34,076 nt of DNA, taken from positions 1 to 34,076 of the forward strand of contig CAKUBI010000023.1 in NCBI GenBank assembly GCA_934636865.1. Direction: 5' to 3'. Positions within the stretch are counted from its first letter, which is position 1. The number at the start of each line of letters is the position of its first letter. Positions 5,603 to 30,227 of this stretch are shown piece by piece. Both the position numbers and the translations under genes were made by a program. The notes beneath the pieces were generated by a model that was not told the DNA's origin, searched no databases, and was given only the letters and a program-made list of their open reading frames with translations. The DNA comes from an uncultured Oscillospiraceae bacterium. GTDB lineage: Bacteria; Bacillota; Clostridia; Oscillospirales; Oscillospiraceae.

Positions 5603-8600
5603 ATGAAAAGAAGACTTATGGCAGTTTTGATGGCGCTCGTCATGACGCTCAGCTTGCTGCCTGTAAGCGCGTTCGCGGCAGATGATCCGGGAATTTCGTT
5701 TACAAAGTCTGCCGTGGCCAACGATGATGGCACCTATACCATCACGATGGAAGCCTATGCGACCGGAAAAACGACCACGACCACGACAAAGCAGGCCCTG
5801 GACATTGCCCTCGTGCTGGATGTTTCCGGCTCGATGGATGATAATTTCGGGCGTGGACCGCAGCGGCAGAAGAAGCTGGATGCGCTGAAAACCGCGGTCA
5901 ACAGCTTCATCGACGGAGTTGCGGAGGGCTCGCCCGAGAGCAACATTTCCATCGTGAAGTTTGCCGGTAACATGACGAATAAGGTCGGCAACGATACGTA
6001 TCGGGAGAAGGGATATATCTACAATTACACCCAGATCGTAAAGCAGCTGACAGCCGTCAAGACCGGCAAAGACGAACTAAAGACGGCTGTCAGCAGCCTG
6101 AGAGCGGCTGGCGCTACGGCGGCGGACTACGGCATGGAAAAGGCGGAGACCGCGCTGGCGACCGCGCAGAACCCGAAGGTCATTGTCATGTTCACGGACG
6201 GTGAGCCGAATCACGACAATGGCTTTGATTATGAGGTCGCCACGAGTGTCATCAATAAGGCGCAGACGATGAAGGCGGCGGGCACCACGATCTATACGGT
6301 CGGTGTGTTTGAAAGAACTGACGACACGACCAACCGCTATATGAGCTCGACCTCCTCTAACTATCCGAAGGCTACTGCGGAAATTATTCACCATTTTGTG
6401 TTTCCGGATGAATGGCGGGTAAACAACGGCGGTACGGACAAGGGCAGCTATTACAAGACTGCTTCCAGCGCCAGCGACCTGAACAATATCTTCAAGGAGA
6501 TCAGCCAGGAGATCTCTTCGGCTGCGAACGCAAACCTGAACGATAAGACCACCGTGGTCGATACGATCTCCGACTATTTCACGCTGGATACGGACAACGC
6601 GGCGTCCGTCAAGGTCTACACCGCGGATAAGACTGCGGACGGCTGGGCCGAGGCTGTGGAAGCGCCGGAATCCGTAAAGGTCAGCATTGACGGCAAGACG
6701 GTCAGCGTGACCGGCTACGACTATGCGGCCAATTACGTGCACGACGGTCAGGGCCAGAAGCTGATCATCAAGATCACGGTCGTGCCCAGCGGCACCGGCT
6801 GTGAGACGAAGGATATCCCGACCAATGCCGACAGCAGCACGGACAATGCGGCGAAGGTGATGCTGAACGGCGAAGAGGTCACGTCTGCGCCGAGCGCCTC
6901 GATCGAGGGCCACGCGGTAGCGTATGATCTTGCCGGCGGCGAAAAGCAGAGCGACTTCCCGACGCTGTATTACCCCGAGTATGCGCAGGTCAGCGTGACG
7001 GACAAGGTCCCGACGAAGCAGGGCTACGATTTCACCGGCTGGAACTGCGGCGATGCTTCCGCCAGCGGCGAGTTCGTCATGCTCGACGAGGATATTACGC
7101 TGGTTGCCCAGTGGGTGAAGCAGACGATCGATGACAAAATCATCGTTGAGGTCACGGGCAATCATGCTACGCTCCCGTACAACGGCGAAGAGCAGAGCGT
7201 GAGCGGCTACACGATCGCGATCACGCAGAACAGCGCGGAGCATCCGTATGACCTTGCGTATGTCACCGGCCCCGCGCAGGAGACGTCCATTGCAAAGGGC
7301 ACCGACAAGGGTACCTATGAGATGGGCCTCAAGAAAGAGGATTTTCAGAATACCAACGCTGATTACACCAACGTTGAATTCATTGTGACGGACGGTTTCC
7401 TGACCATCACCCCGAAGGACGTCACCTTCACCGGTAAGAGCGATTCGAGAGAGTGGACCGGCGAAGAGCAGGAGATCACCGGCATCACGCCGGACGGCCT
7501 GCTGACCGGCGATACCTATGAGGGCCTGAGCTACAGCGCCAAGGGCACGGACGCCGGCAAATACGACGGCGTGTTCAGCGGTGATGTGGTCATCAAGAAC
7601 GCGGACGGCGTGGATGTGACGGACAACTACAACGTGATCAAGACCCCCGGCGTTCTCACTATCACGGACAAGACCGAAACGGTCGCCGTGATGTTCAGGA
7701 TCGTGAACGGCACGTGGAAGGACGGCTCAAGGGCCGACAAGACCGCGACGGTCACGCTGACCAACGGCAAGGGCACGCTCGATGAAAAGGACGTCCCCAC
7801 CGGCATGCAGCCTGACAAGGGCTACACGAACGGCACGTGGGATGTGACGCCCAACACAGCGGAGGACGCGATCAAGGGCGGCGAGGTCTACACGTACTCT
7901 TATGAGAAGATCATCCCCGCGAGCTTTAACCCCAACGGCTACATCGTCAAGCAGATGACCGGCGATGAAATGCCGGCCGAAGAGACCTTCACCGTCAACG
8001 TCGCTCCTCTGAGCGGCGGCGCAGGCGTGAACGGCACGGCGACGCTTCGCACCGGCAGCACGAATTTCGTGTTCCCCGAGGGAAGCAGCTTCGCGATCTC
8101 CGAGGAGACCATCTTCATGGTGTCTGAGGACGCGGGCAGCGCGGCGCGCGTGACCTACGATGACAACGTCTATCAGCTCAAGGTCACGGTGAAGCTGAAC
8201 GCCGCCGGTACGGCGATGGAGATCGACAAGGTCTACTGTTCCGCCGACGGCGAGACCTGGCACGAGATCGACAGCGCTGACGGCGACAAGCTCGTCATCA
8301 CCAACAGCTACGTCGATCCGGACCCCGCGAGCTTTAACCCCAACGGCTACATCGTCAAGCAGATGACCGGCGATGAAATGCCGGCCGAAGAGACCTTCAC
8401 CGTCAACGTCGCTCCTCTGAGCGGCGGCGCAGGCGTGAACGGCACGGCGACGCTTCGCACCGGCAGCACGAATTTCGTGTTCCCCGAGGGAAGCAGCTTC
8501 GCGATCTCCGAGGAGACCATCTTCATGGTGTCTGAGGACGCGGGCAGCGCGGCGCGCGTGACCTACGATGACAACGTCTATCAGCTCAAGGTCACGGTGA

Positions 8601-18768: not shown

Positions 18769-19596
18769 ATGGACCGGACGATCACATTTTTGGGCGGCGA
18801 CGCGCGCATGCGCCTGCTCGCGCAGATGATGGCGGCGGAGGGAGCGGACGTGCGCTCGTGGGCGCTGCCCGGCGCGCCGGGGGAGAGTGCGCTGTGCGAT
18901 GCGCTGAAAGCGGAGATCATCGTGCTGCCGCTGCCGATGGAAAAAGAAGGAAGGCTCAGCGGAACGGACATGGCGGCGGACGATCTTCTGCGCGCGCTGC
19001 GGCCGCGGCACCGCATTTTCGCGGGCAGCGTGAGCCGGGAGACGATGGAAAAGGCCCGCGCGCTGGGCCTTCACGTGACGGACTATTTTACCTGCGAGGA
19101 GCTCAGCGTGCGCAACGCCATCCCTACGGCGGAGGGCGCGATCGAGCTTGCCATGAAGCACACGAGCGTCACGCTGCACGGCACGCCCTGCCTTGTGCTG
19201 GGCTTTGGCCGCATCGGAAAGCTCCTTGCGCACGACCTTGCCGCCCTGGGGGCAAGAGTGACGGTCAGCGCGCGGAAGCTCTCGGACCTTGCGTGGATCG
19301 ACGCCTTCGGCTATGCGGCGCTGCACACGAACAGGCTCGCGGGCACGCTGGGAGAATTCCGCGTGGTGTTCAACACCGTGCCGCACCCGGTGCTGGACGA
19401 GGCGCTGCTTTCTGAGCTGCCGCGGGATGTGCTGCTCATCGAGCTTGCAAGCACGAGCGGGTTTGACCTTGCGGCGGTCGAGCGGCAGCGGCTGCATTAC
19501 ATCCGGGCCGGGGGCCTGCCGGGACGCGCCGCGCCGGAGACGGCGGCGCGCGCCATCAAAAAAACCGTATGCCGGTTGATCAAGGAGGACGCATGA
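18769..19596 (+). CDS. spoVFA: Dipicolinate synthase subunit A
   Basis: A 275-residue Rossmann-fold dehydrogenase subunit that, with subunit B, converts the cyclic precursor dihydroxytetrahydrodipicolinate to dipicolinic acid in the mother cell during sporulation. The N-terminal part resembles the DpaA substrate domain. The cofactor site is LVLGFGRIGKLLA near residues 141-153. I chose ATG 18769 because AAGGGGG precedes it by 6-7 nt; the open frame back to 18673 runs into the perR promoter. Its stop overlaps spoVFB as ATGA with AAGGAGG at 19582-19588. Dipicolinate accumulation is specific to endospores, so this gene is the best evidence for a spore former. Confidence 0.92.
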   Translation: MDRTITFLGGDARMRLLAQMMAAEGADVRSWALPGAPGESALCDALKAEIIVLPLPMEKEGRLSGTDMAADDLLRALRPRHRIFAGSVSRETMEKARALGLHVTDYFTCEELSVRNAIPTAEGAIELAMKHTSVTLHGTPCLVLGFGRIGKLLAHDLAALGARVTVSARKLSDLAWIDAFGYAALHTNRLAGTLGEFRVVFNTVPHPVLDEALLSELPRDVLLIELASTSGFDLAAVERQRLHYIRAGGLPGRAAPETAARAIKKTVCRLIKEDA

Positions 19597-20153
19597 AGAT
19601 CGGATTTGCCTTTTGCGGCTCGTTCTGCAATCACCCCGAGCTGCTGAAAATTTACGAGGATATCGCGCGTGAGCACGAGCTCGTGCCGATCCTGTCGGAA
19701 AACGCGGCGCGGTATTCCACGCGCTTCGGCACAGCGGAGGACTTCGTCACCCGTGTAGAGGCCATCGCGGGGCGCAGGGCTGTGCGCGATATCGTGGAGG
19801 CCGAGCCCCTCGGCCCGCAGGGGGCGATGGAGGTGCTCGTGATCGCGCCCTGCACGGGAAATACGCTCGCAAAGCTCGCCCACGGCATCACCGACGGGCC
19901 GGTGACGATGGCGGCGAAGGGCCACCTTCGCAATGGGAAGCCCGTTGTGCTTGCACTCGCGACGAACGACGGCCTTTCCGCGAGCGCGCCGAACATCGCC
20001 GCGCTTCTGAACCGCAAACACTACTACTTTGTCCCCTTCGGGCAGGACAACGCCGAAGCGAAGCCCACGTCGCTGATCGCGGACTTCCGAAAGATCATCC
20101 CGGCGGCGGAGGCGGCGATAGAGGGCCGGCAGCTCCAGCCCATCCTGCTGTAG
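19593..20153 (+). CDS. spoVFB: Dipicolinate synthase subunit B (flavoprotein fold)
   Basis: A 186-residue flavodoxin-like HFCD-family protein, partner of subunit A. Family stretches are GFAFCGSFCNH at the N-terminus, APCTGNTLAKLAHGITD near residue 88, and KPVVLALATNDGLS. It ends with the typical LQPILL. Translation is coupled to spoVFA. The last base of its TAG stop is the G of the GA dinucleotide at the left junction of the mobile element, so the insertion left the protein intact but removed whatever natural terminator or downstream gene followed. Confidence 0.93.
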   Translation: MKIGFAFCGSFCNHPELLKIYEDIAREHELVPILSENAARYSTRFGTAEDFVTRVEAIAGRRAVRDIVEAEPLGPQGAMEVLVIAPCTGNTLAKLAHGITDGPVTMAAKGHLRNGKPVVLALATNDGLSASAPNIAALLNRKHYYFVPFGQDNAEAKPTSLIADFRKIIPAAEAAIEGRQLQPILL

Positions 20154-20157
20154 AAGC

Positions 20158-20197
20158 AAAAAAGGCGGCAATTTGCCGTGTGCTGATAAGACAGTAA
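20158..20197 (+). repeat. Left terminal inverted repeat of the element
   Basis: AAAAAAGGCGGCAA (20158-20171) and TGCTGATAAGACAGTAA (20181-20197), both found inverted at the right end. Confidence 0.85.
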
Positions 20198-20243
20198 TTT
20201 GAGAAAACTACAAAATCGGCATCTGCCAAGCAGGATTGGACAA

Positions 20244-20288
20244 CAAAACAGACGGCTCTCAGCTTCGGCTGGGTGCCGCCTGTTTTTG
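20244..20288 (+). terminator. Strong hairpin terminator just inside the left end
   Basis: A long stem with TTCG loop: AAAACAG, CGGC and CTCAGC arms pair with GCTGGG, GCCG and CTGTTTT, with single mismatches between blocks, ending in five Ts. It would stop read-through from spoVFAB into the element, and possibly from the other side too. Confidence 0.8.
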
Positions 20289-20536
20289 TACATCTAAGGG
20301 TTGAAAATTGCTTATTTTCTGCCATATAAAGCAAGGGCAATGAAAAGGGTGAAATAGTTATTGCCTTTGTGCGATCTCTTTGTGAAACAGCGAATCGCTA
20401 CATATCGAATACAGTTCGCTGTGGTGCGTACATATTTGCGACTGTGTAAAATACCTCACGAAACTGTAAACCCAATGGGTGGGAACTTTGATGCAGAGTA
20501 TATCCGATATCAGGAAAATCAGCTCGTGAGTTCAAC

Positions 20537-20683
20537 ATGTATAGCGGTTGCGTGGAACTGACGCTCGACAACGGCAGCGTGATTGCTTTTGACTGTAACG
20601 TCGTAGAACACGAAATCGCCGACAATATGTATCAGCAGTTTGAACTGGATTGGCTGATCGATAATGCATCGTTTGAAAATTGA
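20537..20683 (+). pseudogene. Probable remnant of a small element-borne ORF (DUF6061-like)
   Basis: A 48-codon frame from ATG 20537 to TGA 20683 encodes a start MYSGCVELTLDNGS and a later ADNMYQQFELDWLID. This resembles the small DUF6061-type proteins common in Clostridia integrative elements, but here it is short at the C-terminus and lacks a ribosome site and a clear N-terminus. The same frame is open only back to 20492. I see no other coding signal between the left end and 20690. Family naming is from memory and uncertain. Confidence 0.4.
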
Positions 20684-20749
20684 GTGATATATGCTGCCAG
20701 TAGATGCTTTTCTATAGGCGGTATTTTAATATTATTTGCGCCGGAAAGG

Positions 20750-20778
20750 TTGACATCATCAATCAAATAATATACAAT
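20750..20778 (+). promoter_or_regulatory. Promoter of the small XRE gene and methyltransferase
   Basis: TTGACA (20750-20755) and TACAAT (20773-20778) with a 17-bp spacer, about 30 bp before the start codon. Confidence 0.8.
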
Positions 20779-20809
20779 ATCAATCGAAACATCTGGAAAG
20801 GGGTATATT

Positions 20810-21022
20810 ATGACTACATCAGAGCAAATTCGTGTTTTATGTGTAAGAACCGGTGTGAGCCTGTCAGAGCTTGCACGTAGGATTAATCAAACACCGCAAA
20901 ACTTTAATGCTAAACTCAAACGAAATACAATAACCCAGGACGAACTTAATCAGATTGCAAAGGCTTTGAATGTTACATATGAACAATACTTTGTTTTGGG
21001 TAACGGCGAACTCATCAAGTAA
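20810..21022 (+). CDS. Small XRE-family helix-turn-helix protein
   Basis: A 70-residue protein that is almost only a helix-turn-helix: LCVRTGVSLSELARRINQTPQNFNAKLKRN (helices 1-3), then ITQDELNQIAKALNVTYEQYFVLG. It fits Cro/CI-type regulators and the small controller proteins linked to restriction-modification loci. AAAGGGG precedes ATG 20810. It sits 14 bp before the methyltransferase gene behind a strong promoter, so it probably controls that gene and itself (inference). Confidence 0.82.
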   Translation: MTTSEQIRVLCVRTGVSLSELARRINQTPQNFNAKLKRNTITQDELNQIAKALNVTYEQYFVLGNGELIK

Positions 21023-21036
21023 GAAAGGGCTTTACT

Positions 21037-22311
21037 ATGACTGAACATAAAATCATATTTGGCGATAGTCGCTCGCTCAACCAAATCAAAGATAAATCTG
21101 TGCAGCTAATTATAACATCGCCTCCATACTGGCAGTTAAAAGATTATGGCACGGAAGATCAGATTGGTTTTAACGACAGCTACGAAGAGTACATAAACAA
21201 TTTGAATTTGGTGTGGAAAGAATGCAATCGTGTCCTTTCTGACGGATGCAGATTGTGCATCAATATTGGGGATCAGTTTGCTCGTTCTGTTTATTACGGC
21301 AGATATAAAGTTATTCCGATCAGAACAGAGATAATTCGTTTTTGTGAATCCCTTGGTATGGATTATATGGGAGCTATTATTTGGCAGAAAACCACCACGA
21401 TGAATACTTCTGGCGGCGGTGCCATTATGGGCAGTTTTCCTTATCCTCGCAATGGTATTCTTAAAATGGATTATGAGTTTATCCTACTTTTCAAAAAATT
21501 AGGTAATGCCCCTAAACCAACTCAACAGCAGAAAGAACAGTCTGCAATGACCAAAGAAGAATGGAGTCAGTATTTTTCTTCCCATTGGAATTTCAATGGC
21601 GTCAAACAGCTGGGGCATATTGCTATGTTCCCAGAAGAGCTTCCTAAACGACTGATTAAAATGTTTTCTTTTTCAGGAGAAACGGTATTGGATCCGTTTG
21701 CAGGTAGTGGTACAACATCGCTTGCTGCAAAGAACCTTGGAAGAAATTCTATTGGTTATGAAATCAACAGAGATTTTGAGCCAATCATTCGTGAGAAATT
21801 GGGAGTAGACCAAATCACAGTAGGCGATGATGCAAAGGTGATTTTTGCAGAAGACGATATCGGAAACATTTCTTCTTTTGAGCAACTTCCGTACCTTTTC
21901 AACGATCCACATAGAATGGATAAAAAGATTGATGTAAAGAAACTTCAATTCGGTTCGAGGATTGATCAGTCTGAATCGAAACGAAAGGAATTGTTCAGCG
22001 TGAAGAAAGTCATTTCACCTAACAAAATTGAGCTAAGCAACGGACTTACAGTTCGACTGCTGGGAATCAAACCCAACCCATTATACCAAAGAGAAGCTAT
22101 CAGTTTCTTACAAGAGAAATTTCATAAGCGAAATGTTTTTTTGAAGTATGATACTGTAAAATATGATTCAGAAAACAATCTGATGTGCTATGTGTATCTT
22201 GATAATAAAACCTTTGTCAACAACCACTTAGTAAGAACAGGATTCGTAGATGTTGATACATCGTTTGATTATACCTGTCAAAAGAAATTCCTAAATTCAT
22301 TTCCTAATTGA
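21037..22311 (+). CDS. Beta-class DNA methyltransferase (N4-cytosine type) with C-terminal nuclease-fold domain
   Basis: A 424-residue methyltransferase. Catalytic motif IV TSPPYW is at residues 27-32 and AdoMet motif I DPFAGSGTTSLAA begins near 219, that is order IV before I (beta class). SPPYW favours N4-cytosine as target. Residues about 323-422 look like a staphylococcal-nuclease (TNase) fold: IELSNGLTVRLLGI, a helix REAISFLQEKFHKRN, VFLKYD, then CYVYLDNKTFVNNHLVRTGFVDV. The Glu after TP and the second catalytic Arg of active TNases are not where expected, so this domain is probably a non-catalytic DNA or protein binding unit. It would protect host DNA against the convergent MjaI-like endonuclease. 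ATG 21037 is preceded by AAGAAAGGG. Confidence 0.85.
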   Translation: MTEHKIIFGDSRSLNQIKDKSVQLIITSPPYWQLKDYGTEDQIGFNDSYEEYINNLNLVWKECNRVLSDGCRLCINIGDQFARSVYYGRYKVIPIRTEIIRFCESLGMDYMGAIIWQKTTTMNTSGGGAIMGSFPYPRNGILKMDYEFILLFKKLGNAPKPTQQQKEQSAMTKEEWSQYFSSHWNFNGVKQLGHIAMFPEELPKRLIKMFSFSGETVLDPFAGSGTTSLAAKNLGRNSIGYEINRDFEPIIREKLGVDQITVGDDAKVIFAEDDIGNISSFEQLPYLFNDPHRMDKKIDVKKLQFGSRIDQSESKRKELFSVKKVISPNKIELSNGLTVRLLGIKPNPLYQREAISFLQEKFHKRNVFLKYDTVKYDSENNLMCYVYLDNKTFVNNHLVRTGFVDVDTSFDYTCQKKFLNSFPN

Positions 22312-22315
22312 AAAT

Positions 22316-22339
22316 GGGCGGATGGTTTCACCTCCGCCC
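22316..22339. terminator. Hairpin between convergent methyltransferase and endonuclease genes
   Basis: GGGCGGA (22316-22322) pairs with TCCGCCC (22333-22339), with extra GG-CC pairs inside. No long T-run follows on either side, so it is a weak shared terminator at best. Confidence 0.5.
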
Positions 22340-22345
22340 TAAGTT

Positions 22346-22936
22346 TCAGTCTTCAATTTCAATGGTTAAGCCAGTCTTTGTTTTGGTGTAATAGATCATT
22401 TTCACAGCGATCGTTTCGGACAACCGTCCCATTGTTTTATATGTATCTGGTTTCACAGAATACGGAACATTGCCAACATATCCGTCAATGCCAACAGACT
22501 CTTCCTCGGGAGTGGCAAGACGATAAGTTGTTCCTCTGCGCTCAGCAAGAGAAGCTAAGATTGCTTTCTGAACATACATACCGTTGAAGGTCTTAGAAAT
22601 AACGAGATCTTCTACCCAGTGTTTAACCATTTCACGATCAATAAGCGGAATAGCATCACGGAGATTCTGCACCTGCGCATAAATCTTATCAGTTGCTTTG
22701 TCAAAAGCATCGGGATATCTTTCTACATACCAATCGCGCCAGTTCTCAATAGTGATTTCTTCACCGGAATCCATAAACTCCGGAAACAACTCAGACATCT
22801 GACCGACAACAACAGGACGAGTGCCCTGTGCATTTTGATTTGCCCAGTTGATTAACTGAGAAGTGTATTTTGGAAAGCTGAAAGTATCGCTTTCGTTGTA
22901 GCTTTCTATGTTTTCGTTTTTTAGTGTGTACTTCAT
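22346..22936 (-). CDS. MjaI-like type II restriction endonuclease
   Basis: A 196-residue protein that I assign to the MjaI restriction endonuclease family by remembered signatures: FPKYTSQLINWANQNAQGTRPVVVGQMSEL at 21-50, VEDLVISKTFNGMYVQKAIL at 108-127, and ATPEEESVGIDGYVGNVPYSVKPDTYK at 141-167. The last stretch offers a PD-(D/E)xK-like site: Glu145/Glu146, Asp151 and Lys162, with Ser160 where the second acid often lies. MjaI cuts CTAG and its methylase is an N4-cytosine enzyme, which fits the methyltransferase next door; specificity here is inferred only. ATG 22936 is 5 nt after AGGTGG and overlaps the upstream stop as ATGA, so its translation depends on the preceding gene. Confidence 0.68.
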   Translation of the reverse strand: MKYTLKNENIESYNESDTFSFPKYTSQLINWANQNAQGTRPVVVGQMSELFPEFMDSGEEITIENWRDWYVERYPDAFDKATDKIYAQVQNLRDAIPLIDREMVKHWVEDLVISKTFNGMYVQKAILASLAERRGTTYRLATPEEESVGIDGYVGNVPYSVKPDTYKTMGRLSETIAVKMIYYTKTKTGLTIEIED

Positions 22937-23236
22937 TTGTTCCACCTCGCATAATTATCGTTAGCCATTTTTTGCGTTTTTCTCATGCCGCTGATTCGTT
23001 TTTCATAATTAGCGTTATAGTCATCCATTTCTTCGTCTGTTTGAGCAATAAAATAACCCTTGTTACAAGAAATCAATGGCAATCCATACTCTTCCGCAGT
23101 ATCCCATATAGCTTGTCTACTGACCGACTGCGTATCCTCCATAGGAAACCCCATAGCTTCACTTATACGTTTAGCTGCGATAGCATTTTTTTCTACCACG
23201 GTGTTCCATCAAAATATCCTTAATCTTTTCGCTCAT
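22933..23236 (-). pseudogene. Winged-helix-like regulator with apparent frameshift at an A7 run
   Basis: Read from ATG 23236 (GGAGG 6 nt upstream), the frame gives MSEKIKDILMEHRGRK and then stops at 23171 after 21 codons. Removing one base of the seven-A run (plus-strand T7 at 23186-23192) joins it to a frame that continues NAIAAKRISEAMGF...GLPLIS...GYFIAQTDEE...RISGM to TGA 22933, giving about 100 residues. The joined protein looks like a complete small winged-helix domain of the kind found beside restriction genes. Without the slip, only an internal GTG (23199) with no ribosome site could make the C-terminal part. It may be a real mutation, a sequencing error in a homopolymer, or programmed slippage. 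It overlaps the XRE gene before it and the endonuclease after it. Confidence 0.65.
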
Positions 23237-23447
23237 CGTGAACCTCCAAAAACAATTTATATGTTTCAATTTCAAGTGCATCAGCTATGCGCTGAATATT
23301 TTCAAGCGAAATACTCCTGCGATAGCACTCGATTGCACTGATATATGTTCTATGAAGCCCGCACTTCTCGGAAAAGGCTTCTTGTGATATACCTAACGCC
23401 TGTCGATAGCGCTTCACATTTGTTCCAAAAACTCTTACAATATCCAT
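23220..23447 (-). CDS. XRE-family controller protein of the endonuclease operon
   Basis: A 75-residue helix-turn-helix protein: VFGTNVKRYRQALGISQEAFSEKCGLHRTYISAIECYRRSISLENIQRIADALEIETYKLFLEV. Size and sequence match the C-protein controllers of type II restriction-modification systems, which delay endonuclease synthesis until DNA is methylated. I chose ATG 23447 because GGGGG lies 8-9 nt upstream; longer in-frame starts would run through the promoter. Its stop lies inside the next gene, 17 bp past that gene's start, beginning a chain of overlapping genes that ends in the endonuclease. Confidence 0.8.
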   Translation of the reverse strand: MDIVRVFGTNVKRYRQALGISQEAFSEKCGLHRTYISAIECYRRSISLENIQRIADALEIETYKLFLEVHDERKD

Positions 23448-23449
23448 AC

Positions 23450-23492
23450 TTGCAATCCCCCTTATTATAGGATATAATATTGAATACAATAA
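23450..23492. promoter_or_regulatory. Interlocked divergent promoters between controller and Gabija-like operon
   Basis: Rightward: TTGCAA (23450-23455) and TATAAT (23473-23478), 17-bp spacer. Leftward: TATAAT read on the minus strand at 23469-23464, with a poor -35 (TTGTAT, 23490-23485). The two -10 boxes form a perfect inverted repeat ATTATA-GGA-TATAAT (23464-23478). A second repeat TATTG-AATA-CAATA lies at 23479-23492. Polymerase could hardly use both promoters at once. The repeats are candidate binding sites for the XRE controller. Confidence 0.6.
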
Positions 23493-23532
23493 ATCTACAG
23501 ACAATAAGTAGCTTTTTTGAGGCGGTGATTGA

Positions 23533-25113
23533 GTGAATTATATTAAATCTTTGCATATTGAAGGTTTTAAGAAGTTTCAAACCTTGGATGTAGAATTTAA
23601 TGAACACATGAATATTCTTGTTGGCGAGAACGAGGCAGGGAAAAGCACTATACTGGACGCTATCAAAACGGTATTAAACCAGCAATATCGTCTTGCTGAC
23701 AAATCTGTGTTGAGAGATTTATTCAATGCCCAAATGGTTGAAGCATTTGAAGCCAATCCAAGCGTTAAAACCCTACCTCGTATCTTGATAGAAGTAGAAC
23801 TCGTGCTTGACCCTAAAACTAAAAACGCTGATTACTTCTATGGAGAAGTATACGGAACATTAAAAAAGCAAGCCGAAAAATTCGGTATCCGATTTGAGTG
23901 TAAGTACGATGAATTATTGGGAGCAGGTATGGAGCAATCCATATCTGAGAAGAAAATTCCGTACGAATATTACGCACTTACATGGATGACATTTGCAAAC
24001 AATCCATATCAGACAATTCGGAGACCGCTTCAGTTCATCGCCATAGATATAACGAACAATGCCTCAGCTCCATCTTTCAATTCTTACAATAGAACGTTAT
24101 TTACAAGTAGATATGATGAGGCAACAAGAGCCAAGGCAAAAAATGATTTTCGCACGAAGTTAGTTGAAGCATTCGACGCTGCAGAACTTCCTGAATTGGG
24201 TGATAATCGCAAGTTCGGCGTTGATACGAAAAAAGTTGTATTTGAAACCATACTTTCCGTTTACGAGGGAACGATTGCTCTTGAAAATCGTGGTAGTGGC
24301 ATGGAAAGCCTAATCAAGACGGAAATCGCCTTAGAGAAAGCTAACGGATTAGATGTTATTTTGATGGAAGAACCAGAAAATCACCTGAGTTTCACTACAC
24401 TTCGCAAAATGCTCCATGAGATTTCTATAAAGCAAAAAGATTCACAGATTATTGTTGCTACACACAACAATATGATCGCCAGCCATCTAAATCTTAACAA
24501 TGTTCTTTGGATAACAGAAAGCGAAGTTAAATCTCTTTCTGGAGTAGATAAAGCCGTGGCAGAGTTCTTTGTCAAGGCTGATGATAATGCTTTTCTTCAG
24601 TTGTTACTTTCAAACAAGGTTTTTCTTGTGGAGGGCGCTACCGAATTTTTACTGCTGCCGCATTTTTACAAACAGATTACTGGTAAAACAATCGAAGAAG
24701 ATGGTATATCGGTGATCTCTTGTAATGGTATTTCTTATAAAAACTATCTTGAGATCGCCAAAAAGGCAAACAAGAAAATATCTGTAATTACGGACAATGA
24801 TGGTAAACAGGGCAGAATAGACGAAGCAATAACATTTAATGAAACCACTACATTGCAGCACATCTTTTTGGGCGCGACAACGGATGATTGGACATGGGAA
24901 GCGTGTCTGTATAATTTGAATAAAGCGGCACTTGATGGGATGATAGAAGTTCAGGCAGGAGCTGATTATTTATTCCATAAAAAAGATTACGGTCAAGTTC
25001 TTGGGAAAATGTTAAACAACAAAGTGGAGACAGCATATAAGATGCTTATCTCTGGGGTGGAATTTGAAGTGCCCCAGTACATAAAGGATGCATTTGAATG
25101 GCTAAGAAAGTAA
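23533..25113 (+). CDS. OLD-family ATPase/TOPRIM nuclease, GajA-like
   Basis: A 526-residue protein. The ABC/SMC-type ATPase occupies about residues 1-345: Walker A GENEAGKST (31-39), signature-like ENRGSGMES near 255, Walker B DVILMEEPENHL from 274, H-loop VATHN near 309. A TOPRIM domain follows, with catalytic Glu367 in FLVEGATE and the metal pair Asp421/Asp423 in ITDNDGK. This layout defines OLD nucleases. A UvrD-like helicase gene immediately downstream marks class 2 OLD, which includes GajA of the Gabija anti-phage system, where the protein is a DNA-nicking nuclease controlled by nucleotide levels. It is somewhat shorter than Bacillus GajA (about 578). GTG 23533 has GAGGCGG 7 nt upstream. 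It overlaps the helicase gene by 16 nt. Confidence 0.85.
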   Translation: MNYIKSLHIEGFKKFQTLDVEFNEHMNILVGENEAGKSTILDAIKTVLNQQYRLADKSVLRDLFNAQMVEAFEANPSVKTLPRILIEVELVLDPKTKNADYFYGEVYGTLKKQAEKFGIRFECKYDELLGAGMEQSISEKKIPYEYYALTWMTFANNPYQTIRRPLQFIAIDITNNASAPSFNSYNRTLFTSRYDEATRAKAKNDFRTKLVEAFDAAELPELGDNRKFGVDTKKVVFETILSVYEGTIALENRGSGMESLIKTEIALEKANGLDVILMEEPENHLSFTTLRKMLHEISIKQKDSQIIVATHNNMIASHLNLNNVLWITESEVKSLSGVDKAVAEFFVKADDNAFLQLLLSNKVFLVEGATEFLLLPHFYKQITGKTIEEDGISVISCNGISYKNYLEIAKKANKKISVITDNDGKQGRIDEAITFNETTTLQHIFLGATTDDWTWEACLYNLNKAALDGMIEVQAGADYLFHKKDYGQVLGKMLNNKVETAYKMLISGVEFEVPQYIKDAFEWLRK

Positions 25114-26231
25114 TTCTTGCCGTTGCTGGTGCGGGAAAGACCTATCATATCTGCCATAAGATAGACCCGACTAAGAAAAACTTAATACTTGCATATACTC
25201 ATGAAAACATTCACAACATTCAAAAAGAATTATGTGATGCACATGGATGCGTGCCGGAATTGACAACAATAATGACCTTCGATGCGTTCGTGTACCACAA
25301 TTTAATTCTTCCGTATGAACCAAGTATCGCTAATCATTTTTCTATGCCTCGTTTTATAAGTAGAGGTATTTGTTTAACCGATCCTCCGCCGCAGAGAATA
25401 AAGGATGCCAACGGCGAGATGGTATCTAATCCCCTATATATGAAAAAGGATAAACTTGCTCATTACGTGACGAAGAAACGCCAATACTATTGTGTCACTT
25501 TGTCAGAGCTCGCGCTTCAAGTAAAAGAAGGACGAGATTCTCTCATCAAGCGAGCGGCAGCCCGATTGAATATGTTCTACGATTCAGTTTTGATTGATGA
25601 GTTTCAAGATTTCAGAGGATTTGACTATGAACTAATTATGAAACTTGCAAAGCATTTAAATGACATTCTGCTTGTTGGTGATTATTATCAGCACTCTGTT
25701 TCTGCCCGAAACAACACAGGCAAGCCATTTAAAACCTCAAAAGGCGATGTATCATACGCCGAATTTGCAGAAGGTGTATTGAAGTCTGGGTTTGAGGTAG
25801 ATACGACCACTTTGTCAAAGTCCAGACGATGTTCTGTGGATGTATGCAATTATGTAAGCAATAAACTGGAGATTGATATTACGTCTACCGGTGATCATAT
25901 AGGACAAGTAATATGGGCTGATGATATTGCTGACGAGGTGTTGAGCAATGATCTAATTACCAAACTGGTTTATAGTGAAGCTACAAGGTATTCATTTCCA
26001 GCTTTAAATTGGTCATACGCCAAGGGGGATACCGTGGATTGCGCTTGCGTAATTCTAACGAAAGATTTCGAGAAACTCGCTGAAGATAAATTTTCGACCA
26101 AGAAAATATCCATTTCTACACTGAACAAATTGTACGTTGCTATGACACGTAGCCGTGGCGATTTGTACCTAATAAAAGCATCGACATTTAAAAAATTGCA
26201 AGATGCGTATATCAAAAGTAGATATACTTAG
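25098..26231 (+). CDS. Compact UvrD-like SF1 helicase, GajB-like
   Basis: A 377-residue superfamily-1 helicase-like protein. Motif I AVAGAGKT (GAGKT 11-15), motif II LIDEFQD (165-171), motif III LLVGDYYQHSVSA, motif IV-like LSKSRRC and motif VI LYVAMTRSRGDLYLI are all present, but it is much shorter than UvrD (about 700) and GajB (about 490). The accessory 1B/2B insertions must therefore be cut down. In Gabija, GajB assists GajA in phage DNA recognition and destruction. The ATG lies within the end of the GajA-like gene, so the two are translated together. No terminator is obvious directly after it, and the structured hairpin region begins within 40 bp. Confidence 0.82.
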   Translation: MAKKVILAVAGAGKTYHICHKIDPTKKNLILAYTHENIHNIQKELCDAHGCVPELTTIMTFDAFVYHNLILPYEPSIANHFSMPRFISRGICLTDPPPQRIKDANGEMVSNPLYMKKDKLAHYVTKKRQYYCVTLSELALQVKEGRDSLIKRAAARLNMFYDSVLIDEFQDFRGFDYELIMKLAKHLNDILLVGDYYQHSVSARNNTGKPFKTSKGDVSYAEFAEGVLKSGFEVDTTTLSKSRRCSVDVCNYVSNKLEIDITSTGDHIGQVIWADDIADEVLSNDLITKLVYSEATRYSFPALNWSYAKGDTVDCACVILTKDFEKLAEDKFSTKKISISTLNKLYVAMTRSRGDLYLIKASTFKKLQDAYIKSRYT

Positions 26232-26266
26232 TGGGTGATACGTAGAGCTTTTGAAAAGCAAAGTCA

Positions 26267-26688
26267 GCTCCGCAGGAGCGCAGCCGATTTCTCTGAAATC
26301 GTTCAGGGGTTTGGGGCATTTCCCCAACAAGATTGCACGGGTGTATAAACACGAGCATTGCTTGCCAAGTGCGTTTCGCAGTTGGCAGGTAATGAGAAGT
26401 GGGTACCGCCGTGCATTGCTTGCCAGAATGGCAAGCTCCGGTGTGGGTACTCACCGGATTTGCTTGCTATTCTGCAAGGAAATCCCGGTCGTACCACGCC
26501 GGTTTTCGCAAGTGTATCTACACTTGCTGTGCTTGCTATTCTCCGTTTCCTATGTTAGCAAGCGCCATTTCCCAAATGGAAATCGGCGGCAATCGCCGCC
26601 TTGTCTGCCAAAAAGCGAAACGGACGGACGGAAGTCAATGGCGGCGCAGCCGTTCATCTTGACCATTGACGGCGTTCGTCCGTTTTGC
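26267..26688. other. Dense array of about thirteen consecutive hairpins (non-coding)
   Basis: No convincing gene lies between 26232 and 26742. Reading along the strand, inverted repeats follow one another almost without gaps: 26267-26279, 26285-26301, 26311-26327, 26361-26389, 26418-26436 (8-bp perfect, loop GAA), 26437-26458 (7-bp perfect), 26463-26478, 26485-26502, 26508-26527 (9-bp), 26531-26563 (8-bp), 26564-26587, 26585-26600 and 26615-26688 (12-bp outer plus 8-bp inner stem). GCATTGCTTGCCA occurs twice (near 26355 and 26414), and CTTGC is used in many stems. This could be a structured RNA, a transfer or replication origin of the element, or a recombination signal. Confidence 0.75.
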
Positions 26689-26742
26689 TATTCCAACTGG
26701 ATTTTTGCATGAAATGAACCGAAGCGAAGGAGGCTTGACGAA

Positions 26743-27138
26743 GTGAATCCGAAAGAAAAAGACAATGAGATCATCGAACTGACCGACGAGGAACTGGACG
26801 AGATTTTTACCGATGATGATTTTGATAACAGCGAGGAGGACGGTGAAATCCACTCGTTTCATTTCACCAACCCCGACCCATATACCAAAGTCAAGCCACG
26901 CCCCGACGATGCCCCAAAGAGAGAGTTTTCTTTCGATGAAAAGGGCAACATTGTTGTGAAAAATCCGTCCGCCTTTTGGCTGCCCGACGTCAAAATTGTG
27001 GAGGAACACGGCGGCACGGAATACACCGTAACCGGCAGCTATGAGGGAACGGAAACCCTCGACAGGAAGCTCAGACGCATCATGGAACAGAACGCCGCCG
27101 ATGATAAAAACGGTATCACGGAGGACGCCGATGAGTAA
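26743..27138 (+). CDS. Small acidic element-borne protein of unknown function
   Basis: A 131-residue protein that I do not recognise functionally. The first 45 residues are very acidic (ELTDEELDEIFTDDDFDN), followed by a compact region with FHFTNPDPYTKVKPRPDD, REFSFDEKGNIVVKNPSAFWLPDVKIVEEHGGTEYTVTGSYEG. GTG 26743 is preceded by AAGGAGG at 26727-26733. It lies directly before the recombinase and its end overlaps a possible recombinase start at 27131. Linkage suggests a role in excision or transfer of the element, but nothing in the sequence proves it. GC content matches the recombinase, not the AT-rich cargo. Confidence 0.7.
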   Translation: MNPKEKDNEIIELTDEELDEIFTDDDFDNSEEDGEIHSFHFTNPDPYTKVKPRPDDAPKREFSFDEKGNIVVKNPSAFWLPDVKIVEEHGGTEYTVTGSYEGTETLDRKLRRIMEQNAADDKNGITEDADE

Positions 27139-27211
27139 CGGCGTTTCTCTTGATATAAACCCAAAATCCAATCCTGTTCAGACAGTTGCCCCGACAAAGG
27201 AGGATAATAAT

Positions 27212-28867
27212 ATGGCAAGGGCAACCGACAAAATCACAGCATTATATTGCAGACTGTCCGTAGAGGACACCAAGGAAAAAGGCGGCAAGGATGACCCATC
27301 GAACTCCATCCAGCATCAGCAGATCATGTTAATGGAGTATGCAAAATCTCAGCACTTTCCGAACCCGACGTTCTTTATTGATGACGGGTACAGCGGCGTG
27401 GATTTTTCCAACCGCCCCGGCTTTCAGAAGATGCTTGCGGAAATTGAAGCCGGTCATGTGGAAGTGGTGATTACGAAAGATCTTTCAAGACTCGGTCGTA
27501 ATTCCTCGCTGACAGGGCTTTATATCAACTACACGTTTCCTCAGTACGGCGTGCGGTATATTGCCATCAACGACCACTTCGACACCATTGACCCCAACAG
27601 CACCGACAGCGACATGGCAGGTATCAAGAACTGGTTCAATGAGTGGTATTCCAAGGATACCAGCCGCAAAATCCGTGCCGTCAACAAGGCAAAGGGGGAG
27701 CGTGGAGAGCGCTTGACCACCAACGTTCCCTACGGCTACAAGCGTGACCCTGACGATCCTAAGAAATGGGTGATTGACGAGGAAGCTGCACAGGTCGTGA
27801 AGCGGATCTTTGCGCTCTGCATGGAGGGAAAAGGGCCGAGTCAAATTGCCGCCCTGCTGGAAAAGGAGAAGGTGCTGAACCCCACCGCCTACAAACAGCG
27901 GGAGGGCAGAAAAACACCGCATCAGACCCCGGAGAACGAGTATCGCTGGCACGAAAGCACCGTTGCTTACATCCTCGAATACATGGAGTACACAGGCTGC
28001 ACGGTCAATTTCAAGACCTACACCAACTCCATCTGGGATAAGAAGCAGCGGGAAAATCCAATGGAGAATCGCAAGATTTTCTATAACACCCACCCGGCAA
28101 TTATCTCTCTGGAAGTCTTTGATAAGGTGCAGGAGATCAGGCAGCAGCGGCACCGCAGAACAGCGACGGGGAAGAGCAATATGTTCTCCGGTCTGGTGTT
28201 CTGCAACGACTGCAAGCAGAAGCTCTACTACTCCACCACCAGCTATTTTGAAAAGCGGCAGGACTTCTTCATCTGCTCCACCCATCGTGTCAATAAGGAC
28301 AAGTGCAGCGGACATTATATCCGTGCCGTTGTGCTGGAACAGATCGTCTGGAAGCACATTCAGGAGGTCGTATCGGTAGTCACTCGCTATGAGGCGTATT
28401 TCCGTTCTGAAATGGAGCAAAAGCTCCGTATACAGAGCGAGGAATCGCTGCGGCTATATCAAAAGCGGCTGGCACAGGCTGAGAAGCGTATCGGAGAGCT
28501 TGACCGTCTTTTCATCCGCATTTATGAGGACAATGTAGCCGGACGGCTGGACGATGAGCGCTTTGCCATGATGAGCAAGAACTACACCGAGGAACAGAAA
28601 GACCTCAAAGCCGAGGTCAAGGGTCTGCAACAGCAAATCCATGAACAGGAACAACAGGCAGAGAATATAGAGCAGTTTGTTCAGCGGGTAAAGAGGAACA
28701 GCACCCTCACGGAACTGACCCCCTATGCCCTCAGAGAGCTTGTCAAGGCGGTCTATGTAGATGCACCTGACAAGTCCAGCGGCAAGCGCAGGCAGAAGGT
28801 ACATATCGAGTACGACCTTGTGGGCTATATTCCTGTGGATGAGCTGCTAAAAGCGGAACAGGCATGA
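27212..28867 (+). CDS. Large serine recombinase (TnpX-like)
   Basis: A 551-residue site-specific recombinase. The N-terminal resolvase-type domain has catalytic Ser16 in ALYCRLSVED, and VVITKDLSRLGRNS downstream. A recombinase domain follows (VPYGYKRDPDDPKKWVIDEEAAQVVKRIFAL), then a zinc-ribbon-like segment with Cys pairs near residue 331 (FCNDCKQ...FICSTH...DKCSGHYI) and a coiled coil at about 405-495. It should excise the element as a circle and insert it at GA sites. I chose ATG 27212 with AAGGAGG at 27197-27203. ATG 27131, also behind GGAGG and overlapping the previous gene's stop, would add 27 residues and is a real alternative. No accessory excisionase is recognisable. Confidence 0.93.
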   Translation: MARATDKITALYCRLSVEDTKEKGGKDDPSNSIQHQQIMLMEYAKSQHFPNPTFFIDDGYSGVDFSNRPGFQKMLAEIEAGHVEVVITKDLSRLGRNSSLTGLYINYTFPQYGVRYIAINDHFDTIDPNSTDSDMAGIKNWFNEWYSKDTSRKIRAVNKAKGERGERLTTNVPYGYKRDPDDPKKWVIDEEAAQVVKRIFALCMEGKGPSQIAALLEKEKVLNPTAYKQREGRKTPHQTPENEYRWHESTVAYILEYMEYTGCTVNFKTYTNSIWDKKQRENPMENRKIFYNTHPAIISLEVFDKVQEIRQQRHRRTATGKSNMFSGLVFCNDCKQKLYYSTTSYFEKRQDFFICSTHRVNKDKCSGHYIRAVVLEQIVWKHIQEVVSVVTRYEAYFRSEMEQKLRIQSEESLRLYQKRLAQAEKRIGELDRLFIRIYEDNVAGRLDDERFAMMSKNYTEEQKDLKAEVKGLQQQIHEQEQQAENIEQFVQRVKRNSTLTELTPYALRELVKAVYVDAPDKSSGKRRQKVHIEYDLVGYIPVDELLKAEQA

Positions 28868-28886
28868 CCGAGATCATGCCTGTTCC
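28855..28886 (+). terminator. Hairpin spanning the recombinase stop codon
   Basis: Perfect 13-bp stem GGAACAGGCATGA (28855-28867) and TCATGCCTGTTCC (28874-28886), loop CCGAGA, followed by AAGAATTTTGATTTTA. The TGA stop is the end of the left arm. Confidence 0.7.
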
Positions 28887-28899
28887 AAGAATTTTGATT

Positions 28900-28938
28900 T
28901 TACTGTCTTACCAGCAGGGGGCTTTTGCCGCCTTTTTT
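28900..28938 (-). repeat. Right terminal inverted repeat of the element
   Basis: Read on the minus strand: AAAAAAGGCGGCAA (28938-28925), 8 bp, TGCTGGTAAGACAGTAA (28916-28900). The left end carries the same blocks with a 9-bp gap and one mismatch. Confidence 0.85.
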
Positions 28939-28990
28939 ACGATGTAACATTAAACTTGCGCGCGTAGCGGGCAACGCTCGCTCCGCTTGC

Positions 28991-29019
28991 TTGAAAAAAC
29001 GCGCCCGCTCCGCTATACT
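28991..29019 (+). promoter_or_regulatory. Promoter of the DUF2812-like gene
   Basis: TTGAAA (28991-28996) and TATACT (29014-29019), 17-bp spacer, about 30 bp before the start codon and outside the element. Confidence 0.75.
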
Positions 29020-29048: not shown

Positions 29049-30227
29049 ATGAACGACTGGCCGCGCGAGGAAAAACGAAAAAAGAAATACTACCGTGGCA
29101 GCGAGTACGACCTGCGCGGCGTGGAGCGGTGGCTCGCCGGGCTTGCGTCCGACGGGCTGGAGCTTGTGGAGTGGAACGAGTTTCGCGACAGCATGCCGCG
29201 CGAGTGCCGCTTCTATCTCGAGCCCGCCGCGCGGGACGACGGCCCGACGGTCGAGCTGAGCGAAAAGCGCGCGGCGCTGGGTTGGGAATACGTCTGCACG
29301 ACGAAAAACGGTATGTTTTACGTCTGGCGCGGCGGCGCGCTCGCGCACATGCCCATGCCGCGGCAGCAGACGGACTCCTACTGCTATCGCAGGGTGAAAA
29401 AAGCGCTGCGCGAGAGCTGGATCATCCCCGCAATCTATGCGGCGGGTGTCGTCATCGCGGCGGTGATCGTCGCGGGGAGCGCGCCGCTGCTCGTGCGCAC
29501 GCTGATCACGCTGCGCCCTGCCGCGGGCATTCAGGCGCTTTCGCTGCTGCTGTCCGCCGTCCTCGGCTCGCTTGCCAGCACCCGGCAGAACCGGGACCTG
29601 CGCGCGCTCCGGCGCGCGATGGAGGAGGGCGAGCACGTGCGCACCCTGCCGCGCAACCGCTGGGTGTGGATCGAGAAGGGGATCTCCCTGATCTGCCTTC
29701 TGCTGGTGTTCGCGCTGCATATCACGGATCGCGACCTGCCGGAGACGAAGGAGTATGCCGACGATCCGCTGCCCTATCTCAGTGCCGCGCAGGTCGGCGG
29801 CGGGGAGAAGGAGTGGTGCGAGGTGTGCCGGCAGCGGACGGTGCTCGGCGGTACGGTCAGCATCGTCGGCGAGCCGCCGTTCGGCGGGATGATCGGCTCG
29901 TGGTGGACCTACGGCACGGAGCTGGATTTCTACGCCCCGCGCATCACGGACCTTGCCGCTCCGCTGGCGGCGGAGCTTCGCCATTACTTCATGGACGGCA
30001 GCGAGGAGACGCTGACGCTTGACGGCTTCGACGAGGCGTACTACGCGGGCTTTCCCATCCCGAAGCACATGGTCCCATCGTATGTGAAGGGCGAGGCGGC
30101 GTACCGGCAGTTCGTCATCCTGCGGCGCGGCGGCAGAGTGCTCTTTTACCGGGCCGAGACGGCAGAGGACCTGCGCAGCCATTTGAGCGAGCTTGCGGAA
30201 ACTTTCGCGCAGTACGAAAATGCGTAA
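29049..30227 (+). CDS. DUF2812-like membrane protein
   Basis: A 392-residue protein. Residues about 13-100 resemble DUF2812: YDLRGVERWLAGLASDGLELVEW, then CRFYLEP and GWEYVCTTKNGMFYVWRG. Predicted membrane helices follow at about 124-145, 160-178 and 212-230. About 160 residues after the last helix resemble a second copy of a DUF2812-type or related beta-rich unit (FYRAETAEDLRSHL near the end). Such proteins are often found with PadR regulators, but here it stands alone. Function is unknown. ATG 29049 has GGGGAGG upstream. A bidirectional terminator follows. Confidence 0.7.
   Translation: MNDWPREEKRKKKYYRGSEYDLRGVERWLAGLASDGLELVEWNEFRDSMPRECRFYLEPAARDDGPTVELSEKRAALGWEYVCTTKNGMFYVWRGGALAHMPMPRQQTDSYCYRRVKKALRESWIIPAIYAAGVVIAAVIVAGSAPLLVRTLITLRPAAGIQALSLLLSAVLGSLASTRQNRDLRALRRAMEEGEHVRTLPRNRWVWIEKGISLICLLLVFALHITDRDLPETKEYADDPLPYLSAAQVGGGEKEWCEVCRQRTVLGGTVSIVGEPPFGGMIGSWWTYGTELDFYAPRITDLAAPLAAELRHYFMDGSEETLTLDGFDEAYYAGFPIPKHMVPSYVKGEAAYRQFVILRRGGRVLFYRAETAEDLRSHLSELAETFAQYENA

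Follow-up and report, generated by a model that had tools for sequence, protein, structure and literature searches.

A genomic element with a DUF4368 large serine recombinase, probably integrated in the loop of the spoVFB intrinsic terminator of an uncultured Oscillospiraceae bacterium

Introduction

Group IIC introns prefer intrinsic terminators of transcription as insertion sites, and the serine recombinase TnpX has GA as its target dinucleotide. The transposase of IS1272 is of the DDE type, and the recombinase of Tn916 is of the tyrosine type. The present work concerns a stretch of 34,076 nucleotides from an uncultured Oscillospiraceae bacterium (GenBank assembly GCA_934636865.1, contig CAKUBI010000023.1, positions 1 to 34,076 of the forward strand), referred to here as the window, which holds an 8752-bp genomic element encoding a large serine recombinase with a DUF4368 domain. 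The element appears to occupy the intrinsic terminator loop of the host sporulation gene spoVFB, a reading to which we give a probability of about 0.92. It resembles group IIC introns in its insertion at a terminator, but the mobility of those introns depends on a ribozyme and reverse transcriptase and not on a DNA recombinase.

The multi-targeting clade of large serine recombinases is rich in DUF4368 and, in the relevant parts of the paper that describes it, its specificity is called relaxed and its motifs A/T-rich (Durrant et al. 2022, PMC10083194). The same parts give one example with a TT core and T- and A-enriched ends, and a target motif for Cp36 that runs from A-rich through an AA core to T-rich; the main text contains neither the string “terminator” nor “palindrom”. 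As far as this account goes, the window element is alike in its DUF4368 domain and in the many unrelated sites of its relatives, whereas its target appears to be the loop of an intrinsic terminator. It shares with Tn4451 and Tn4453 a TnpX-related serine recombinase, a 2-bp core and low integration specificity (PMC5704250, PMC3158075, which give the core as 2 bp; “terminator” occurs 0 times in both papers). It differs from them in its core, which is TT and not GA, and in that no relaxase domain was recognised among the open reading frames (ORFs) scanned, namely eight element ORFs against Pfam and two further ones against PADLOC alone, with smaller ORFs outside the scan.

Two other systems are of interest for comparison. 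IS1272/TnSha1, of the IS1182 family, is described in the accessible text as targeting hairpins with little conservation of primary sequence, five of seven sequenced sites being transcription terminators (PMC4923244). Its insertion deletes part of the stem-loop, whereas the window element enters at a 2-bp core with both arms kept. In Tn916, a terminator near one end is reported, in the section concerned, to block read-in from host promoters (PMC11658703) and thereby expression of the element's genes, whereas a terminator in the window element would also replace the one that is destroyed. In the open-licence papers searched, no report of a terminator-targeting serine recombinase was found.

Boundaries of the element

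Comparison of spoVFB with the genus group of G001 (Oscillibacter valericigenes An907, the genome of locus L002) gave matches at 69-91% identity in 17 of 18 genomes, and the window host probably belongs in or near this group. In the sister species G222, where spoVFB is 91% identical, the stop codon is followed by AACGAAAAAAGGCAGGAATTTCCTGCCTTTTTTGCGATGTAACA (in a longer stretch, AACGAAAAAAGGCAGGAATTTCCTGCCTTTTTTGCGATGTAACAATAAACTTGCGCGCG), which is an intact terminator with no element. The window flanks joined at TT, reading ...AAAAAAGGCGGCAATTTGCCGCCTTTTTTACGATGTAACATTAAACTTGCGCGCG, align to the G222 stretch without a gap. Both the G222 site and the joined window site form a stem of at least 13 bp, folding at -18.9 and -18.3 kcal/mol. 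Two paired positions differ between G222 and the window arms, each of them on both sides, as for a hairpin under selection. The features of the ends and the host gene are as follows.

19569..20153, + strand: spoVFB, dipicolinate synthase subunit B, the host gene with the targeted terminator (TIGR02852 and NF006161 above cut-off)
20158..20171, + strand: left arm of the intrinsic terminator of host gene spoVFB, separated from its partner by the insertion (pairs with 28925-28938; contiguous hairpin in G222, L117)
20172..20173, + strand: left core copy TT (common dinucleotide at fixed spacing from the inner motif)
20174..28925, + strand: element, 8752 bp with one TT copy counted in (ungapped match of the joined flanks to the G222 empty site)
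20181..20197, + strand: left inner end repeat, attachment arm and probable recombinase binding site (conserved in the close family)
28900..28916, - strand: right inner end repeat (inverted-repeat search and conservation among relatives)
28924..28925, + strand: right core copy TT (core comparison of both ends)
28926..28938, + strand: right arm, with T-tract, of the host terminator of spoVFB (window sequence and G222 empty site)

A preliminary description of the window had set the element at 20153..28942 (~8790 bp), with 14-bp outer repeats as its ends and GA as its target. The repeat strings that it quoted were all found in place when the sequence was re-read. The outer block AAAAAAGGCGGCAA at 20158-20171 recurs inverted at 28925-28938 with 14/14 positions matching, and the inner block TGCTG(A/G)TAAGACAGTAA at 20181-20197 recurs inverted at 28900-28916 with 94% matching. 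GA is present at 20153-20154, where it straddles the end of the spoVFB TAG, and at 28941-28942. The call of a mobile element directly after spoVFB, with inverted inner ends and a serine recombinase gene inside, holds by sequence comparison, and the recombinase is large and of the TnpX/TndX (DUF4368) kind. The boundaries, target and empty site did not hold. The cores and the G222 site bring the span to 20174..28925, inward by about 17-21 bp per side. The search of related genomes for an empty site, which the description had proposed, yielded that of G222, and its junction contradicts the predicted TGCTGTAGATGTAACATT.

As the outer block, the GA and the bases between them are contiguous in the G222 empty site, they are host DNA. 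Both outer repeats are arms of the host spoVFB terminator, which adjoin in G222, and the GA pairs lie farther out than the crossover by ~18 bp and ~16 bp. It could be argued that the 14-bp outer repeats are nonetheless terminal inverted repeats with GA as target, as in Tn4451, since they are perfect and inverted, GA stands outside both, and among solved structures the TnpX N-terminal domain (PDB 2mhc, E 5.6e-28) is closest in sequence to the recombinase. This is scarcely credible against a conserved inner block beside an outer block that differs among elements, arms that lie adjacent as a hairpin in G222, and a core common to both ends that is TT or TA and not GA; the model was dropped. Boundaries of this kind are easily misplaced because the arms of a host terminator mimic terminal inverted repeats, and the same error is likely to be common in annotation.

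The guanine-cytosine (GC) content of the window, taken in 1-kb bins, is 0.38-0.52 in 20001-29000 and 0.57-0.67 in the remaining bins. The lower GC supports a foreign origin of the interior.

Split terminators and empty sites of close relatives

When one genome per GTDB species was scanned with the recombinase, relatives turned up at 21 loci, with best-segment identities of 96-99% (10 loci), 79-93% (9) and 27-38% (2); a scan of IMG/VR gave no relative. The inner block, with up to 3 mismatches, occurs in 18 of the 21 loci and is absent from L018, L019 and L021. When the ends are aligned on this block, the element side is conserved and the outer block is variable between elements. Within one element, the outer blocks of the two ends are complementary, and they are bordered on the outside by a run of A on the left and of T on the right. 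Similar purine-rich outer arms are shared by some elements (L001/L003 and L001/L014), but the best match of the outer block lies within one element. Thus, the outer repeat is above chance yet owned by the host, being variable between elements and best matched within one.

The left and right arms are AAAACAAAAATGCAGA and TCTGCATTTTTGTTTT in L006, AACAAAACAGAGTGCC and GGCACTCTGTTTTGTT in L009, and ATAAAAAAAGACTGC and GCAGTCTTTTTTTAT in L004; these end pairs read as intrinsic terminators split in the loop. Cores and joined folds were compared in 11 two-ended elements, the window and ten relatives with recombinases 86-99% identical, using a core register that was picked from the end alignment before it was tested on them. 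The core dinucleotide is identical at both ends and at a fixed spacing from the inner block in 11/11, being TT in 10 and TA in L003, where CTA is common to both ends. The bases on either side of TT differ between the ends of L015, so that the common part there is exactly TT. Once joined, every one of the 11 sites has a fold of -11.4 kcal/mol or better, L003 being the weakest case, and the core was judged by eye to lie in or touch the loop each time. Host flanks therefore rejoin to a hairpin at the core in the window and in 10/10 close relatives. The 11 elements lie in different flanks, which means that close recombinases are found beside many unrelated genes, as expected of multi-targeting enzymes.

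Natural empty sites are available for three insertions, those of the window, L012 and L004. For L012, a match to the joined flanks runs through the junction in G557 and in G800, where the hairpins fold at -12.5 and -20.4 kcal/mol; for L004, the same is true of G813, whose hairpin folds at -22.1 kcal/mol. G815 matches L004 over the left flank and carries a hairpin of -17.7 kcal/mol directly after the same stop codon. For the L002 flanks no empty counterpart was found, the single match outside its own genome being one of 28 bases, the hairpin itself, in 1 of 18 genomes. Hairpins also stand just after spoVFB in other members of the genus, such as L097 (G001) and L127.

The left end of L009 is present twice, at 3946 and 6303, 2357 bp apart, with 136 identical bases upstream of the start of the inner motif and 37 downstream. 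This repeat may represent a duplication, a nested insertion or an assembly artefact.

How the target site is read

The pairing of arms was scored against mismatched pairs in an anchored test, for which 93 loci were prepared; 28 of the 53 right-anchored loci were used, the other 25 having no left-anchor candidate. When anchored on the inner motifs, an element's own arms scored at least 10 in 21/28 cases, against 30/756 mismatched pairs. A score of at least 14 was reached in 13/28 against 4/756, and two of these four pair L069 with L077, whose arms have the same sequence. A blind search without anchors was weaker (at least 14 in 17/76 own and 12/912 mismatched pairs). An ORF of at least 100 codons ends within 60 bp of the site and reads into the hairpin at 8/10 sites, compared with 351/2000 random positions; the ORF near the L002 site has just 100 codons and may be spurious.

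The data suggest that this recombinase family uses transcription terminators as landing sites, and the target looks like terminator geometry, with an AAA lying 12-14 bp from the loop core on either side. Of 30 half-sites (8 right-end-only loci enter the half-site and profile counts alone), 26, 29 and 29 have A at positions -14, -13 and -12 from the core, respectively, and a weaker bias to G is present at -8 and -5. Such a pattern can be explained by ordinary symmetric reading of half-sites by a recombinase dimer, which would give the same result. The recombinase might then merely prefer A-rich/T-rich sites, and hairpins would be hit because pairs of A- and T-tracts are often terminators; the boundaries would be unaffected. 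This explanation, which we regard as possible though on the unlikely side, has the AAA signal as its strongest asset and agrees with the TT core and T-/A-enriched ends of the example in the accessible text of Durrant et al. (2022; PMC10083194). In the background, the median attB score on a two-half-site profile is reached or exceeded by three sites, and all three are hairpins. Against it, the 1.36 Mb of DNA retrieved from hosts and elements together contain 176 sites of the form A5-N10..26-T5, of which 26 have folds of -8 kcal/mol or better, compared with 7/7 used sites that have both A5 and T5 tracts. Among background sites at the lowest attB profile score, 184/664 equal the weakest used site in stability, compared with 11/11 used. 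The inner 11 arm bases agree at a mean of 9.8 positions within an element and 6.7 in mismatched pairs, and L009 and L015 have poor profile scores but strong stems (-29.6 and -15.8 kcal/mol).

The same two loci, which fit a linear profile badly, could be taken as a sign that the hairpin itself is what the recombinase, or a host factor acting with it, recognises, either extruded as a cruciform or through a polymerase paused at the terminator. The stem is the sole constant of the used sites, and in L079 it is present without clear A/T tracts. A residues at a fixed distance from the core are, however, what ordinary double-strand reading of half-sites by serine integrases would leave, and direct recognition of the hairpin seems distinctly improbable. 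Overall, the site-reading data lean to a role for the dyad, with the hairpin and double half-site readings unseparated.

Breadth among more distant recombinases

Split arms beside a recognisable inner end motif were found for recombinases 39-71% identical. Those at 60-71% have split terminators with arms of up to 19 bp, and in Pusillibacter faecalis pMM59_01 the split arms are of 16 bp. At 40 loci with recombinases 35-71% identical, 12 were accepted as split terminators among the matches listed, acceptance requiring a split terminator with the inner end motif beside its left arm (L142, L144, L145, L148, L149, L150, L154, L156, L157, L161, L164 and L165). At 35-41% identity, no dyad was found within 17 kb at most loci (L158-L160, L162, L163, L166-L180), a reach that misses left ends lying farther away. 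Two of these, L160 and L169, adjoin tRNA genes. The plasmid records L183 and L184 gave no convincing dyad. In L183 (13129-18593, Bacillus badius plasmid pPM400), the related recombinase stands beside annotations of a P4-type primase, a phage major capsid protein and TnpW, and the locus adjoins a type III restriction system; it is possibly a satellite-like element.

A quick tree was made of 82 recombinases, with labels from the dyad searches and 33 unlabelled rows uncounted; a label of “no” stands for a dyad not found, and the left ends concerned were possibly out of reach. The split-terminator label needs two changes on this tree. One clade of 58 rows (support 89) holds 27 yes, 31 unlabelled and 0 no, or 25 yes without L146 and L152, whose labels later fell. 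That a whole clade of large serine recombinases treats the terminator as a universal attachment site, read as a hairpin or dyad (perhaps as a cruciform or coupled to polymerase) and not as sequence, with destroyed terminators swapped for the element's own, is a doubtful proposition and is put forward as a conjecture. If clade-wide use of terminators were true, operon ends in many bacteria would be safe landing sites, and terminator geometry would be what underlies the “relaxed” specificity of multi-targeting recombinases employed in genome engineering.

Points against the terminator reading

A number of observations weigh against insertion into terminators as described above. The empty site of the window is known from the sister species G222 and not from the same strain, and the support for mobility is sequence comparison, without observed excision, circle or integration; the role given to the left-end terminator described below likewise comes from sequence alone. 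In L015 and L016, the recombinase gene is incomplete. In the anchored test, 7/28 loci scored below 10: L002, L003, L016 and L148 still have imperfect hairpins, and L062, L070 and L151 show no supporting arms as anchored. The stem of L079, mentioned above, stands without clear A/T tracts. In the empty-site comparisons, G799 and G801 match the right flank of L012 alone and were not counted, and in G799 the left side is occupied by a different gene, which has a hairpin of its own; in G814 the junction corresponding to L004 is interrupted and not clearly hairpin-shaped. Inspection by eye of the 17 spoVFB orthologues showed some without a hairpin after the stop codon (e.g., L119, L126 and L131). 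Finally, three distant loci (L146, L147 and L152) had best dyads with no adjoining inner end motif and were rejected from the count.

As a separate observation, the left flank of L070 (~6840-6890) holds an arm of one hairpin and, ~30 bp further out, the partner of the right flank. This flank looks like a nested or chimeric insertion.

Proposed mechanism and its implications

In the proposed scheme, the element would have inserted into the loop of the spoVFB terminator, apparently with no host DNA lost or gained beyond the 2-bp core. Each subunit of the recombinase dimer would read one half-site, consisting of an A-tract 12-14 bp from the core and a purine-rich inner part. Because its dyad is flanked by A and T tracts, a terminator amounts to two near-identical half-sites, and terminators genome-wide could therefore serve as attachment sites. 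Excision would restore the host terminator and leave the site AAAAAAGGCGGCAATTTGCCGCCTTTTTT.

The insertion would destroy the host hairpin, and the element would supply a terminator of its own ~60-75 bp inside the left end.

20245..20290, + strand: the element's strong intrinsic terminator inside its left end (20235-20300 folds at -28.5 kcal/mol, z -4.96)

This terminator is oriented in the direction of spoVFB, so that the upstream gene probably still ends cleanly. A strong hairpin with a T-run is found near the left end in 11/11 two-ended elements, at -19.6 to -29.6 kcal/mol, the folded stretch beginning 52-65 nt from the left inner motif; random windows of equal size hold a hairpin of -19.6 kcal/mol or better in 38/300 cases. 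The left-end hairpins fall into two dissimilar sequences, one per subgroup. By position and orientation, the terminator probably replaces the broken host one, and it may also insulate the element by analogy with Tn916.

The main value of these findings would lie in a general rule that recombinases of this group land in terminators. For a group of multi-targeting serine recombinases, this provides a testable landing rule, namely the loops of intrinsic terminators, and accounts for a possible spread of such elements between Firmicutes in which no genes are disrupted. As a guide to integration sites in recombinase engineering, the rule may outperform an A/T-rich motif.

Genes carried by the element

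The cargo of the window element consists of two predicted anti-phage defence systems, an MjaI-type restriction system and Gabija.

20810..21022, + strand: small Cro/C1-type helix-turn-helix (HTH) protein (PF13443)
21037..22311, + strand: type II N6/N4 DNA methyltransferase with a C-terminal SNase-like domain (PF01555, PF00565; PADLOC MTase_II, E 1e-167)
22346..22945, - strand: MjaI-type restriction endonuclease (PF09568, E 3.5e-66; PADLOC REase_II)
22933..23199, - strand: ORF of 88 amino acids with no PADLOC match (scanned with PADLOC alone)
23220..23504, - strand: HTH protein like restriction-modification control proteins (PADLOC Control_protein, E 1.7e-19)
23533..25113, + strand: Gabija GajA-like protein with AAA ATPase and OLD-type TOPRIM (PADLOC GajA, E 1e-88; PF20469)
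25098..26231, + strand: Gabija GajB-like UvrD helicase (PADLOC GajB, E 1.7e-42)
26743..27138, + strand: acidic ORF of 131 amino acids upstream of the recombinase (no match in Pfam, NCBIfam or PADLOC)
27212..28867, + strand: large serine recombinase with Resolvase, Recombinase, Zn ribbon and DUF4368 domains (PF00239, PF07508, PF13408, PF14287)
28855..28886, + strand: hairpin at the recombinase stop codon, a possible terminator of the recombinase gene (13-bp perfect inverted repeat with 6 nt between)

The PF09568 endonuclease beside a PF01555 methyltransferase points to a type II restriction-modification system of the MjaI type, and the adjacent, overlapping gajA-like and gajB-like genes recognised by PADLOC are consistent with Gabija. 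The recombinase is assigned to the DUF4368 large serine recombinases, as all four of its domains score above the Pfam cut-offs in 27041-28867. Its start at 27212 was placed from the AGGAGG at 27198-27203, the reading frame being open from 27041. Restriction and Gabija genes would spread in this way into harmless intergenic spots, which indicates a route by which such systems may move between species.

The cargo of the relatives varies. The gene order of the window, with an MjaI-type restriction system followed by a Gabija-type pair, is repeated in L014 (2390-11797), whose recombinase is 86% identical and which lies in a different terminator. In L001, McrBC genes stand beside the same recombinase module, and L004 has ORFs of equal sizes (by size comparison alone). 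L002 carries an EcoRI-type methylase and an HNH restriction protein, and L006 the PADLOC candidate PDC-S01. Cargo unrelated to defence includes NUDIX (L003), TrkH (L009), an ABC permease (L012) and SPFH (L015).

An Rfam scan gave nothing at gathering scores. For the product of the right-flank gene at 29049-30227, a search of 391 sampled Clostridia genomes gave no match at E <= 1e-20. The acidic ORF at 26743-27138 is a candidate directionality factor; ORFs of 105-131 amino acids stand at a similar place in several relatives, a likeness in size alone. A CAGGATTGG-type segment at 20210-20240 recurs inverted at 27165-27195, just before the recombinase start. Similar segments are also found in distant relatives and may represent a regulatory or recombinase binding site.

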